This document shows positions 34,727-43,178 of a DNA stretch of 64,000 nucleotides, piece after piece. Made by a program: the position numbers and the translations under genes. A model generated the notes under the pieces. It saw nothing but the letters and a program-made list of their open reading frames with translations, ran no database searches and was not told the origin of the DNA. This stretch comes from Klenkia marina (GTDB lineage: Bacteria > Actinomycetota > Actinomycetes > Mycobacteriales > Geodermatophilaceae), in the NCBI RefSeq assembly GCF_900101025.1, contig NZ_FMUH01000002.1, positions 620,001 to 684,000 of the forward strand. The letters run 5' to 3'. Positions within the stretch are counted from its first letter, which is position 1. Each line of letters begins with the position of its first letter.

Positions 34727-35413
34727 GTGAAGGGTCTGCTGATCACCGTCCTCGTGCTGCTCGGGTTGCTCGTGGCCGCCGACCGCGTCGCGGTGGTCGT
34801 CGCCGAGGACCAGGTCGCGGCGCAGGTGGCGCAGCAGGGCGGGCTGGCGGGCGAGCCCGACGTCGACATCACCGGGTTCCCGTTCCTCACCCAGGCCGTG
34901 GCCGGCCGCTACGACGACGTGCGCATCTCGCTGACCGCCGACGAGCTGGGCCAGCCGGCCGGCACCGGTGCCGACGTCTCGCTGCGGGGCGTGCAGCTGC
35001 CGCTGTCCGACGTCCTCGGTGGCCGGGTGCAGCAGCTGCCGGTCGAGCGCGTGGACGGGCAGGCCTCGGTGCCCCTCGACCTGCTCGCCGCGCAGCTGGG
35101 CGGGGACACGACCCTGACCCGCGAGGGCGACGGGCTGCGCATCACCAAGACCGTCGAGGTGCTCGGGCAGACGGTCCCGCTCACCGCGACCGGCACCGTG
35201 ACGCTCGACGGCCAGGACCTCGTGGTCGACGTCTCCTCCGCCGCCGGGGCCGGCATCGACGTGCCCGACGTCGTGGTGGAGCAGGCGCAGGACCTGCTGG
35301 ACTTCCGGTACGCGCTGCCCGCGCTGCCCTTCGGTCTGCAGGTCACCGGTCTGCAGGTCACCGACGGCGGCGTGGACGTGACCGTGGCGGCCACCGACGT
35401 CGTCCTGCAGTAG
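34727..35413 (+). CDS. lmeA: DUF2993 / LmeA-like envelope protein
   Basis: A 228-aa secreted or membrane-tethered protein. The N-terminus MKGLLITVLVLLGLLVAADR is a signal anchor, followed by the DUF2993 fold (DVDITGFPFLTQAVAGRYDD, LRGVQLPLSDVLGG, VDVTVAATDV). In mycobacteria the syntenic Rv0817c product LmeA binds phosphatidylinositol lipids and supports lipomannan elongation. GTG at 34727 is 10 bp after GGGAG. It lies between a membrane protein and a thioredoxin-like gene, matching the Rv0816c-Rv0818 neighbourhood. Confidence 0.85.
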   Translation: MKGLLITVLVLLGLLVAADRVAVVVAEDQVAAQVAQQGGLAGEPDVDITGFPFLTQAVAGRYDDVRISLTADELGQPAGTGADVSLRGVQLPLSDVLGGRVQQLPVERVDGQASVPLDLLAAQLGGDTTLTREGDGLRITKTVEVLGQTVPLTATGTVTLDGQDLVVDVSSAAGAGIDVPDVVVEQAQDLLDFRYALPALPFGLQVTGLQVTDGGVDVTVAATDVVLQ

Positions 35414-35436
35414 CGGGAATCCGCACCGTCCCGGTC

Positions 35437-35892
35437 GTGTTGGGTCCTCTCGTGGACGCGACCGGTGCGCTCGTGCTCGGCCTGGCGCTGCTCGTCGCAG
35501 GGGTGGCCGCCTGGTGGCTGCGCACCCGCAGCGGTGCGGTACGGACGACGGGAGCAGGCGTGAGCGAGCTCGAGGTGCTGCGTTCCCTGGGCGTGCGGCC
35601 CGAGGACGCCGACCTGACGGTGGTCCAGTTCGCCACCGCGTTCTGCGCGCCGTGCCGGGCCACGAAGGCCCGCCTGGAGCAGCTGCGGACCAGCCACCCG
35701 GGGCTCGCCGCCGTCCACGTCGACGCCGAGAGCCAGCTCGAGGCCGTGCGGGCGCTGGACGTCCGGCGCACCCCGACGCTGTTCTACCTCGACCGCAGCG
35801 GTGCCCTGCTGGGGCGCAGCAGCGGCGCTCCCCGGCCCGACGAGCTGCGCGCCCTGGTGGCCGCGCACGCCCCGGCGACGGGGGCCGTGTGA
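35437..35892 (+). CDS. thiX: Membrane-anchored thioredoxin-like protein (ThiX type)
   Basis: A 151-aa protein. TM helix at the N-terminus (GALVLGLALLVAGVAAWWL), then a thioredoxin fold with active site FCAPCRATKARL and the cis-proline region VRRTPTLFYLDRSGALLG. The C-x-x-C is intact. It is probably a redox protein at the membrane, possibly a sulfur carrier for the sulfurtransferase downstream. It matches M. tuberculosis thiX (Rv0816c) in position. The start (GTG 35437) lacks a good ribosome site; a GTG at 35452 is possible. Confidence 0.85.
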   Translation: MLGPLVDATGALVLGLALLVAGVAAWWLRTRSGAVRTTGAGVSELEVLRSLGVRPEDADLTVVQFATAFCAPCRATKARLEQLRTSHPGLAAVHVDAESQLEAVRALDVRRTPTLFYLDRSGALLGRSSGAPRPDELRALVAAHAPATGAV

Positions 35893-35902
35893 TGGGTGTT
35901 GC

Positions 35903-35908
35903 TACCCT
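35903..35908 (+). promoter_or_regulatory. -10 hexamer for leaderless leader-peptide mRNA
   Basis: TACCCT followed by 7 bases and the GTG of the cysteine-rich leader peptide at 35916. This would make the attenuator operon independently transcribed from thiX. Confidence 0.55.
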
Positions 35909-35915
35909 CCCCGCC

Positions 35916-35999
35916 GTGGGCACCCTGCTGACTCAGCGACGCACAGTCGACCTGTGCCGTCTGGGCAGCTGCCTGTGTCGGTCCTCCCTCCGAGGCTGA
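35916..35999 (+). CDS. Cysteine-rich leader peptide (attenuator uORF), 27 aa
   Basis: A 27-codon frame starting MGTLLTQRRTVDLCRLGSCL with a third cysteine two residues later and ending SSLRG. The LxxRRxVDLCR pattern belongs to the short leader peptides found before sulfur genes in actinobacteria. In mycobacteria a polycysteine uORF before the same DUF4395-CysA-SseC set senses cysteine through ribosome stalling. The start codon coincides with a leaderless transcript start. The DUF4395 start lies 47 bp after the stop. Confidence 0.8.
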   Translation: MGTLLTQRRTVDLCRLGSCLCRSSLRG

Positions 36000-36046
36000 C
36001 TCCCCGCCTCGACGCGCCCTCACCCGCCGTCGGAAGGCCCCACCCC

Positions 36047-36478
36047 GTGACACCCGCTCGTCAGGTCGACGTCCGTGGCCCGCGCTTCGGCGCCTGGATC
36101 ACCACGGTCGTCCTGGCCGTCGTCCTGCTCACCGGCAGCGGCTGGCTGCTCGCCGTCCAGGCGGTGGTCTTCGCCGTCGGTGCGTTCGCCGGTCTGCGGT
36201 ACGCCCCCTACGGGGTGCTGTTCCGCGTGCTGGTGGCCCCCCGGCTGGGCCCGGCCACCGAGCGGGAGGACGAGGCGCCGCCCCGGTTCGCCCAGCTCGT
36301 CGGGTTCGGCCTCGCCCTCGTCGGCACCCTCGGCTACCTGGCCGGCGCACCGCTCGTCGGTGCCGTCGCGACCGGGTTGGCCCTGGTGGCCGCACTGCTC
36401 AACGCGGCCGCGGGCTTCTGCCTCGGCTGCGAGCTCTACCTGCTCGCCCGGCGGGCCCGCCCCGCCGTCCGTCCCTGA
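36047..36478 (+). CDS. DUF4395 membrane protein of the sulfurtransferase operon
   Basis: A 143-aa protein with about four helices (TTVVLAVVLLTGSGWLLAVQ, LVGFGLALVGTLGYLAGAPL). It carries a conserved C-terminal motif GFCLGCELYLLARR whose cysteines suggest a sulfur-handling or transport role. The start is the GTG at 36047; GGAAGG lies upstream. It stands between the cysteine-rich leader and the sulfurtransferase gene, the same order as in mycobacteria. Reaction unknown; import of a sulfur compound or anchoring of ThiX-like proteins would fit. Confidence 0.85.
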   Translation: MTPARQVDVRGPRFGAWITTVVLAVVLLTGSGWLLAVQAVVFAVGAFAGLRYAPYGVLFRVLVAPRLGPATEREDEAPPRFAQLVGFGLALVGTLGYLAGAPLVGAVATGLALVAALLNAAAGFCLGCELYLLARRARPAVRP

Positions 36479-36504
36479 ACCCCCATCCCGCAGGAGGAAC
36501 CACC

Positions 36505-37338
36505 ATGAGCCGCTCCGACGTGCTCGTCAGCGCCGAGTGGGCCCAGGAGCACCTGGGTGACGCCGGCCTGGTCTTCGTCGAGGTCGACGAGGACACCAGC
36601 GCCTACGACAAGGGCCACCTCGAGGGTGCCGTGAAGTTGGACTGGAAGACCGACCTCCAGGACCCGCTGCGCCGCGACTTCGTGGACAAGGAGCAGTTCG
36701 AGGCCCTGCTGTCGGCCAAGGGCATCTCGAACGACGACACCGTCGTGCTCTACGGCGGCAACAACAACTGGTTCGCCGCCTACGCCTACTGGTACTTCAA
36801 GCTCTACGGCCACGACGCCGTGAAGCTGGTCGACGGCGGCCGCAAGAAGTGGGAGCTCGACAGCCGCCCGCTGTCCGACGCCGAGGTGACCCGTCCGGCC
36901 ACGCAGTACACCGCGCAGGAGCCCGACACCTCGATCCGCGCGTTCCGCGACGAGGTCGTGGCCGCGATCGACACCAAGAACCTGGTCGACGTGCGCAGCC
37001 CCGACGAGTTCGCCGGCAAGCTGGTCGCCCCCGCCCACCTGCCGCAGGAGGGTGCGCAGCGCCCCGGCCACATCCCCTCGGCCGTGAACGTGCCGTGGAG
37101 CAAGGCCGCGAACGAGGACGGCACCTTCAAGAGCGACGAGGAGCTGGCCGCGCTCTACGCCGACGCCGGCTTCGACGGCTCGAAGGAGACCATCGCCTAC
37201 TGCCGCATCGGCGAGCGCTCCAGCCACACCTGGTTCGTGCTCAAGGAGCTGCTGGGCCACGAGAACGTCAAGAACTACGACGGGTCGTGGACCGAGTACG
37301 GCTCGCTCGTCGGCGTCCCGATCGCCAAGGGCGCCTGA
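36505..37338 (+). CDS. Thiosulfate sulfurtransferase (rhodanese, CysA2/3 type)
   Basis: A 277-aa protein of two rhodanese domains. The catalytic loop is AYCRIGERSSHTWF with C233 forming the persulfide. HLEGAVKLDWKTDL is in the inactive N-terminal domain and DVRSPDEFAGKL in the C-terminal domain. It transfers sulfur from thiosulfate (or 3-mercaptopyruvate) to a thiol acceptor. ATG with GCAGGAGG site. The gene is followed 2 bp later by sseC, a fixed partner. Despite the mycobacterial symbol cysA, it is not the sulfate ABC ATPase. Confidence 0.95.
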   Translation: MSRSDVLVSAEWAQEHLGDAGLVFVEVDEDTSAYDKGHLEGAVKLDWKTDLQDPLRRDFVDKEQFEALLSAKGISNDDTVVLYGGNNNWFAAYAYWYFKLYGHDAVKLVDGGRKKWELDSRPLSDAEVTRPATQYTAQEPDTSIRAFRDEVVAAIDTKNLVDVRSPDEFAGKLVAPAHLPQEGAQRPGHIPSAVNVPWSKAANEDGTFKSDEELAALYADAGFDGSKETIAYCRIGERSSHTWFVLKELLGHENVKNYDGSWTEYGSLVGVPIAKGA

Positions 37339-37340
37339 CC

Positions 37341-37634
37341 GTGTGCGGGGCCCCCAAGCAGGGCGGCGCGCTGGCCGGCATCGACCTGACCACCCAGACG
37401 GTGATCCAGGGCTCGGTGTGGCACGACGGGGCACCGGTCGCCGGCGCCTACGTGCGGCTGCTCGACTCCTCCGACGAGTTCACCGCCGAGGTCGTGACCT
37501 CCCCGGAGGGCGAGTTCCGGTTCTTCGCCGCGCCGGGTGAGTGGAAGCTGCGCTCGCTGGCCCCGGTCGGCCGCGCCGAGCGCGTGCTGAGCGCCGAGGT
37601 CGGCCTCAACGAGACCACCCTCGCCATCGCCTGA
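37341..37634 (+). CDS. sseC: SseC / DUF1416 protein
   Basis: A 97-aa protein starting MCGAPKQGG. It matches M. tuberculosis SseC across VRLLDSSDEFTAEVVTS and FRFFAAPGEWKLR. The N-terminal cysteine is conserved and may be lipid-free but functional; the fold resembles a carboxypeptidase regulatory/transthyretin-like beta sandwich. It is always encoded after the rhodanese in actinobacteria and is thought to work with it in sulfur metabolism. GTG start 2 bp after the preceding stop. A perfect hairpin ends the operon. Confidence 0.93.
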   Translation: MCGAPKQGGALAGIDLTTQTVIQGSVWHDGAPVAGAYVRLLDSSDEFTAEVVTSPEGEFRFFAAPGEWKLRSLAPVGRAERVLSAEVGLNETTLAIA

Positions 37635-37643
37635 GGCAGCGTC

Positions 37644-37690
37644 GAACGCCAGTGGCCCGGAACCCGTGCGGTTCCGGGCCACTGGCGTTC
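37644..37690. terminator. Perfect 20-bp stem bidirectional terminator
   Basis: Arms 37644-37663 and 37671-37690 are perfectly complementary (core CCAGTGGCCCGG) with a 7-base loop. It lies between sseC and the convergent tetR and overlaps the tetR stop codon. Confidence 0.8.
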
Positions 37691-42855: not shown

Positions 42856-43178
42856 ACCCGGGCATGGACAACCCCCGGGCTGCTCCGCGAATCCTGCTGG
42901 CTCGATGAGCACTTGCTGCAGGTCGCGGGCCGACTGGACTGGGTCGGCGGCCCGGGGGTCGGGTGACTGTCCGGTTCTCGCTCGCCGCCGTACGACGGAC
43001 GGGCGATGCCACGCGCGTCAGACCGGGTTGATCCGGTGCTGAGCGGGCGGCCCATCTGGACGGCGGCTAGCGGACAGCCACCTCACGAGTCCTGAACGAC
43101 ATCAATTGTTCGGACCACCTCCTCTCTCGTGTACGGCCACGGTACGACCGGTGCGACCGTCCTCGCAACGCCCTTTTC
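42856..43178. other. Long convergent intergenic region, about 320 bp, no recognised gene
   Basis: It lies between a plus-strand gene end and the nhaA end. It is less GC-biased than its surroundings around 43090-43180 (CATCAATTGTTCGG, CCCTTTTCTCA). A 45-codon plus-strand frame with five cysteines (42905-43042) and the plus-strand sequence CCACCTCCT near 43113, complementary to a ribosome-binding site, are visible. I can assign no feature with confidence; a small RNA is possible. Confidence 0.35.

Follow-up and report, generated by a model that had tools for sequence, protein, structure and literature searches.

A cysteine-starved ribosome probably switches on a sulfur-transfer operon of Klenkia marina via a leader peptide and a hairpin

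The genes for a DUF4395 protein, a rhodanese and an sseC-type protein of Klenkia marina lie in the stretch of 64,000 nucleotides (nt) of contig NZ_FMUH01000002.1 (positions 620,001 to 684,000) that was analysed here and is called the window. They are preceded by a short open reading frame (ORF) for a cysteine-rich leader peptide, and a predicted hairpin follows its stop codon. Through these two elements, a cysteine-starved ribosome probably switches on the operon. Leaderless cysteine-rich leaders before a sulfurtransferase operon are already known from mycobacteria (PMC4633059). Two features extend this known leader type, judging from the aligned relatives: in Geodermatophilaceae a covarying hairpin follows shortly after the sensor codon and could plausibly act on the Shine-Dalgarno sequence, and a constant Asp-to-Cys distance would be compatible with an arrest peptide.

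The leader peptide and its promoter spacing

The leader frame comprises 27 codons and a stop, from the GTG at 35916 to the TGA at 35997-35999, exactly where the original prediction had placed it. The hexamer TACCCT ends 7 nt before this GTG, which also agrees with the prediction. An alternative in-frame ATG at 35892, overlapping the stop codon of the thioredoxin-like gene, could start the leader frame as well, but the spacing to the -10 element favours the GTG. The 27-amino-acid leader scored 28.4 bits and a 35-amino-acid form 27.5 bits with the NCBIfam model NF042934 ("putative leader peptide", cis_reg_atten), both above the cut-off of 27; this model describes a short peptide of 19 positions, not an RNA. 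With NF042933 ("Ms5788A family Cys-rich leader"), the 27-amino-acid form reached 43.1 bits (E 2.5e-11) and the 35-amino-acid form 39.4 bits, so that the curated cut-off of 45 was missed.

The leader was compared across 110 DUF4395 loci, duplicates included: 30 from relatives and the window genome, and 80 named loci. The named loci are the best 80 among 177 that were confirmed; Geodermatophilaceae contribute many of them, and some come from the same genomes as the 30-locus set. A strict motif, which fixed R0 and D3 of the signature RRTVDLCR (numbered with its second arginine as 0) and limited V2, L4 and R6, gave a single leader in 77 of the 110 loci. In 76 of these 77, a TANNNT hexamer ends 6-8 nt before the GTG or ATG start codon (49 at 6 nt, 26 at 7 nt and 1 at 8 nt), with the start codon of each leader chosen by a script through this distance test itself (4-9 nt allowed). 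Such spacing across loci indicates that the leader ORF is more than a chance frame.

By the strict motif, 29 of the 80 named loci would lack a leader. This reading was rejected after a motif-free scan of these 29 loci for short leaderless cysteine-bearing ORFs within 600 nt, in which RRx(V/I)D was present in 24 of the 26 loci having a match, including RRAVDNCRMRSSLC (Kribbella) and RRAVDHCRVRSSLC (Nocardioides). Of the 80 named loci, 75 therefore have a leader before DUF4395, 51 recognised by the strict motif and 24 by the motif-free scan. Three named loci (L115, L134 and L145) were without a leader in the motif-free scan within 600 nt. In L130 and L141, which are of Propionibacteriaceae type, a different leaderless cysteine-rich ORF lies upstream of DUF4395, ending in MCMCCCRKS or MCCLSH and lacking RRxVD. 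The family models, the presence of the leader in 75 of 80 named loci and the -10/start spacing together support a putative leaderless cysteine-rich leader before DUF4395-rhodanese-sseC.

The three cysteine codons of the window leader start at 35955, 35970 and 35976, three within eight codons. They are codons 14, 19 and 21 (C-x4-C-x-C) and form no contiguous run; for comparison, cysteine makes up 0.7% of codons in 35 long ORFs of the window with high GC content at third codon positions. The prediction had regarded this spacing as a variant design. The cysteines are indeed spaced, but this is not an oddity, as spacing is the usual design at these DUF4395 loci. A run-form RRxVD leader was confined, within the named set, to seven Mycobacteriales loci (two each of Mycolicibacterium, Nocardia and Rhodococcus, and one of Speluncibacter); L123, labelled Rhodococcus, has spaced cysteines and no run. 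In a class-wide search with NF042933, 364 of 394 genomes matched at E up to 1, many of them weakly, 6 of 14 control genomes also matched, and just 48 of the 394 passed the family cut-off. Both spaced (VATCLC) and run (CCCC) forms occur among the best 30 of these matches.

Codon use was compared in 47 strict-motif leaders that are distinct in the compared codon block. Residues R(-1), R0, V2, D3, R6 and C12 do not vary among them, but this invariance is partly built into the strict motif, so that R(-1) and C12 are the only free observations. V2 is encoded by four codons, D3 by two and R(-1) by three; these residues are thus conserved despite codon change. At the same time, the rare codon ACA accounts for 31 of 33 threonines at position +1 (15 of 907 threonines in the background), and TGT is kept at C12 in 45 of 47 leaders (9 of 101 cysteine codons in the background). 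Both the peptide and the RNA are likely to be under constraint. The alignment of leaders in related genera, proposed together with the predicted RRxVDLCR signature, bore the latter out: xLLTxRRTVDLCR(V/L)GSCLC is nearly invariant in Geodermatophilaceae, and RRTVDLCR lies at 35937-35960 in the window. Within these codons, a further hairpin might be formed by GCACAG...CTGTGC (35941-35957). As this element does not vary in 39 + 9 aligned Geodermatophilaceae sequences, its importance cannot be read from conservation.

The hairpin behind the leader stop and the Shine-Dalgarno sequence

The original prediction named no switch beyond the leader. Four segments of the message (regions 1 to 4, Table 1) could pair in alternative ways. 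In 39 non-Klenkia Geodermatophilaceae sequences, a six-pair helix of regions 2 and 3 (2:3) lies directly after the leader stop. In this helix 92.7% of cells are paired and 28 cells are changed on both sides. The paired percentage, the double-change cells and the covariation score were each reached by 0 of 500 shuffles, and pairing falls to 20-59% when the partner is slid. With Klenkia included, six consecutive pairs are present in 42 of 48 distinct sequences, compared to 16% of swapped combinations. Because related sequences share kinship and are not independent, these shuffle and swap counts are not probabilities. Changes at pairs 54-57/66-69 were reconstructed on a single-locus tree built from DNA starting at DUF4395, in one of several equally good solutions. 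Of the 24 changes (tallied by hand), 17 are double-sided with a standard pair kept, 4 break the pair and 3 are one-sided. Before this count, the four sequences whose stop is TAG were manually moved by one column; in the covariation count of 39 sequences they were left unshifted.

The helix keeps a near-constant distance from the last cysteine codon. Region 2 starts 15 nt after the T of this codon in the aligned non-Klenkia Geodermatophilaceae; in the four TAG-stop sequences, the best register of the helix gives 14 nt. Among the nine Klenkia-type sequences, this distance is 15 nt in eight and shorter in L009. The Klenkia-type helix, CGAGGC/GCCTCG, is invariant except for a gap in one sequence, and each position pairs in 8 or 9 of the 9. 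All 9 Klenkia-type sequences could also form four outer pairs between regions 3 and 4 (3:4), again without variation. Owing to this invariance, neither the 2:3 nor the outer 3:4 pairs are informative within Klenkia, for or against.

Complementarity between the leader tail and the DUF4395 Shine-Dalgarno sequence was examined with nine named duplicates removed and L126 left out for want of a usable start. At least 6 Watson-Crick pairs in a row were found in 13 of 38 distinct non-Klenkia Geodermatophilaceae sequences vs 2.6% of shuffles, and the pairing energy of this set was reached by 0 of 10000 permutations. For spaced leaders of other families, such a run was present in 5 of 13 vs 6.2% of shuffles, and 433 of 10000 permutations were as low. 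None of the six run (polycysteine) leaders had a run of at least 6 pairs, which shows nothing, since their tail is just 3-6 nt; with 6 nt more, runs of 2-5 pairs were obtained.

The effect of a ribosome on the Shine-Dalgarno sequence was computed by modelling the ribosome as a block that ends 13 nt past the first base of the A-site codon. Over 48 sequences, the mean cost of opening the Shine-Dalgarno sequence was 7.6 kcal/mol with no ribosome, 6.7 with the ribosome at the stop and 5.2 with the ribosome at the last cysteine codon (8.1, 6.2 and 4.9 kcal/mol, respectively, for the window). The cost was higher with no ribosome than at the last cysteine in 43 of 48 sequences, and higher at the stop than at the last cysteine in 38 of 48. 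When the segment exposed by the stall was shuffled, the stop-minus-cysteine gain fell from 1.51 to 0.22, the native value being higher in 41 of 48 sequences; at the window locus, 1 of 30 shuffles was as low. Opening energy was a second measure, chosen after the result for unpaired probability was known, with the shuffle control added. The mean unpaired probability of the Shine-Dalgarno sequence was higher at the last cysteine than without a ribosome (0.33 vs 0.23).

Table 1. Features of the leader and its operon, with further leader-like ORFs of the same genome
Feature	Position	Strand	Basis
Thioredoxin-like gene, just upstream of the leader	35437..35892	+	Pfam PF00085, E 1.1e-8
-10 element TACCCT	35903..35908	+	TANNNT at 6-8 nt in 76/77 strict-motif leaders
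Putative leader-peptide ORF, leaderless, GTG start	35916..35999	+	MGTLLTQRRTVDLCRLGSCLCRSSLRG*; NF042934/NF042933 scores; conserved in relatives
Codons of signature RRTVDLCR, including rare threonine codon ACA	35937..35960	+	47 distinct strict-motif leaders; motif-free scan
First cysteine codon TGC, position +5	35955..35957	+	Cysteine in 45/47 distinct strict-motif leaders
Second cysteine codon TGC, position +10	35970..35972	+	Cysteine in 41/47 distinct strict-motif leaders
Last cysteine codon, rare TGT, position +12, the only invariant cysteine	35976..35978	+	Cysteine 47/47, TGT 45/47
Region 1, 5' arm of a hairpin competing for region 2	35977..35986	+	Computed ribosome-free fold: pairs with 35992-36000
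Region 2 (CGAGGC)	35991..35996	+	Pairs with region 3; corresponding helix covaries in the family
Region 3 (GCCTCGACG), partner of region 2 or region 4	36006..36014	+	Pairing in computed folds and Klenkia-type sequences
Region 4 (CGTCGGAAGGC), holds the DUF4395 Shine-Dalgarno sequence	36028..36038	+	Can pair with region 3
Shine-Dalgarno sequence GGAAGG of DUF4395	36032..36037	+	Read in the sequence; folds; Klenkia-type comparison
DUF4395 protein, GTG start	36047..36478	+	Pfam PF14340, E 2.1e-47
Rhodanese / sulfurtransferase	36505..37338	+	Pfam PF00581, E 2.1e-35, two stretches
sseC-type protein (DUF1416)	37341..37634	+	Pfam PF07210, E 3.7e-38
Further leader-like ORFs (L032, L034-L037)	G000:C8:132440, C8:356998, C7:89261, C7:237499 (+); C8:132088 (-)		NF042934 search

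Proposed mechanism and rival explanations

The best explanation, in which we have moderate confidence, is a cysteine-responsive translational attenuator. Its parts are the leader, the promoter spacing, the covarying 2:3 hairpin and the excess of complementarity between leader tail and Shine-Dalgarno sequence, all evident from the sequences compared; from them we infer ribosome stalling, a switch between folds and a response to cysteine. The transcript would begin at the leader's own GTG, so that the ribosome would read the leader first. With ample cysteine-charged transfer RNA (Cys-tRNA), the ribosome would pass the cysteine codons and depart from the leader, and the message would then fold with the DUF4395 Shine-Dalgarno sequence paired, leaving the operon poorly translated. 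In Klenkia and several Blastococcus the Shine-Dalgarno sequence would be masked by region 3; in other genera, the final codons of the leader (CCTTC or CCTCC types) would mask it directly. With scarce Cys-tRNA, the ribosome would wait at the last cysteine codon, covering region 1 and leaving region 2, which is 15 nt further in most of the family, free for region 3. In this state the Shine-Dalgarno sequence would be easier to open. Since the covarying hairpin keeps nearly the same distance from the last cysteine codon throughout, it would represent a concrete, mutable switch.

Several results weigh against this attenuator. The mean unpaired probability of the Shine-Dalgarno sequence was not raised at the last cysteine compared to the stop (higher in 24 of 48 sequences), contrary to what this attenuator would lead one to expect. 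In the nine Klenkia-type sequences the order was even reversed on average (0.36 at the last cysteine vs 0.49 at the stop; 0.38 vs 0.57 in the window). This reversal arises partly because the leader stop lies nine bases later in 6 of these 9 sequences, the window included (21 vs 12 nt after the last cysteine codon), and a ribosome halted there additionally occupies the beginning of region 3; the closed fold would then form only once the ribosome leaves. Covariation of 3:4 is only weak, and the direct run between leader tail and Shine-Dalgarno sequence in the window is only 5 pairs long. Two of the five covariation measures of 2:3 were ordinary (pairs with a double change, 200 of 500 shuffles as high; pair types, 37 of 500), and RNAalifold recovered just three 2:3 pairs, with other helices instead. 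The helix of regions 1 and 2 (1:2) showed no covariation in the other genera of the family and was rejected as a family-wide covarying helix. An unusually stable leader fold was likewise rejected, as the single-sequence fold of the window leader was no better than shuffles (z 0.02).

A cysteine-responsive leader might instead act through Rho-dependent termination within the leader, or through coupled re-initiation, with no release of the Shine-Dalgarno sequence. In that case, the role of the covarying hairpin would be to modulate the access of Rho or the movement of the ribosome. No terminator-like site was found in 35400-36600 by a simple consensus scan, and thus no intrinsic terminator of the trp-attenuator type between the leader and DUF4395. 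A classical trp-type transcription attenuator was rejected on this ground, and the same negative result speaks for Rho, which was proposed for mycobacterial cys leaders in PMC1262725 because no conserved terminator hairpins were present there. The distance from leader stop to DUF4395 start, fairly constant in Geodermatophilaceae (~46-60 nt where the start is clear), is also consistent with Rho or re-initiation. However, neither the complementarity of leader tail and Shine-Dalgarno sequence above shuffles and swaps nor the shift of opening cost in the expected direction would be expected from Rho alone, and we consider this output unlikely. Even less can be said for a non-regulatory ORF, be it a chance frame or the gene of an ordinary small protein. 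This is highly improbable in view of the near-invariant sequence, the spacing of the promoter, the operon context and the covarying hairpin at near-constant distance from the last cysteine codon.

The stall itself might be assisted by the nascent chain, with (V/I)DxxR lying in the exit tunnel and a single cysteine codon nine residues past the aspartate holding the ribosome. Such an arrest peptide would not be a counter of codon runs, and it is compatible with translational attenuation; we regard it as a tentative possibility. C12 is the sole invariant cysteine in the 47 strict-motif leaders, in which the first two cysteines vary, and by eye it also occurs in the 24 RRx(V/I)D leaders added by the motif-free scan. 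V2 and R(-1) are conserved as residues across four and three codons, respectively, and the leaders that this genome has ahead of sulfite reductase, cysteine dioxygenase and TauE genes show an identical Asp-Cys distance with one or two cysteines. On the other hand, R0 and D3 were fixed and V2 and R6 limited by the strict motif, so that their invariance is partly built in, and the same stretch can also be frozen by RNA pairing and by the retention of rare codons (ACA, TGT).

Related leaders and neighbouring features

The original prediction pointed to mycobacteria, in which a polycysteine leader precedes the same three genes. In outline this comparison is right: two Mycolicibacterium loci do carry RRAVDLCR...CCCC before DUF4395; at one of them, L126, a local search found sseC and no rhodanese downstream. 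The sources describe an upstream ORF of cysteine-rich leaderless design before cysA2/Msmeg_5788 in mycobacteria (PMC4633059), cysteine-responsive attenuation there in a 2020 study (Canestrari et al., doi 10.1111/mmi.14498, as described in PMC9031893 and PMC13236596) and Ms5788A or polycysteine leaderless small-ORF attenuators (also treated in PMC9094748). Like the Ms5788A attenuators of these descriptions, the window leader is of leaderless type, cysteine-rich, carries RRxVDLCR and precedes DUF4395 and sulfurtransferase/sseC genes. It differs in its spaced C-x4-C-x-C cysteines, which are contiguous in theirs, and in the covarying hairpin that follows the leader stop in Geodermatophilaceae, with the run-type comparison covering six leaders that have 3-6 nt of leader tail.

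The survey of Seliverstov et al. 2005 (PMC1262725) reported short ORFs with cysteine codons before cys operons of Actinobacteria, which the window leader resembles. In these cys leaders, cysteine runs lie near the stop, no conserved terminator hairpins were found and the mode of regulation was called unknown; a covarying hairpin, another operon and another family distinguish the present case. The LEU element before leuA, from the same source, has a leucine run and a pseudoknot, in contrast to spaced cysteines and competing hairpins here. Among the papers listed in literature searches, some lists being brief extracts from hundreds of matches and most subscription papers lying outside their reach, there was no account of such a hairpin in Geodermatophilaceae, and we make no claim of priority.

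Five more leader-like ORFs with (V/I)DLxR...C were found in the same genome, one above the NF042934 cut-off and four below. The genes behind them encode an FAD/NAD(P)-binding protein (NAD_binding_9), a cysteine dioxygenase, a TauE/SafE sulfite exporter, a nitrite/sulfite reductase and a GNAT protein. Two of the five ORFs diverge from each other at C8:132 kb. In all five, nine residues lead from the aspartate to a cysteine near the end. With a search pattern that fixed this spacing, a leader was present at 22 of 30 loci for sulfite reductase and at 14 of 30 for cysteine dioxygenase, both sets counting the window genome; many of the distant cysteine dioxygenase matches are weak and perhaps other genes. 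That the leaders of sulfur operons are an actinobacterial family of cysteine arrest peptides, with (V/I)DxxR in the exit tunnel nine residues before the only invariant cysteine, one cysteine codon being sufficient and the ribosome in Geodermatophilaceae halting ~15 nt from the hairpin that frees the Shine-Dalgarno sequence, is a doubtful proposal at present. If true, one peptide module would be common to sulfurtransferase, sulfite reductase, cysteine dioxygenase and sulfite exporter operons. Since leaders of different sulfur operons share one Asp-to-Cys distance, it may be asked if sensing depends solely on the supply of codons or if the nascent chain takes part as well.

The nearest named relatives of the window DUF4395 protein, among the best 80 of 177 confirmed, are from Klenkia species (88-90% identity). 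Of the 51 named loci carrying a strict-motif leader, 45 have a thioredoxin-like homologue upstream, and 45 have both rhodanese and sseC downstream. At the gathering threshold, no Rfam element was found at the leader; the sole Rfam match of the window is RF02471 (Ms_IGR-5, an actinobacterial small RNA) at 42863-43132 on the minus strand, with 84.8 bits (gathering 45). An inverted repeat with 20-base arms (GAACGCCAGTGGCCCGGAAC...GTTCCGGGCCACTGGCGTTC) lies at 37644-37690, between sseC and a convergent gene that is TetR-like by eye, and may be a terminator that both genes have in common, though it lacks a T run.

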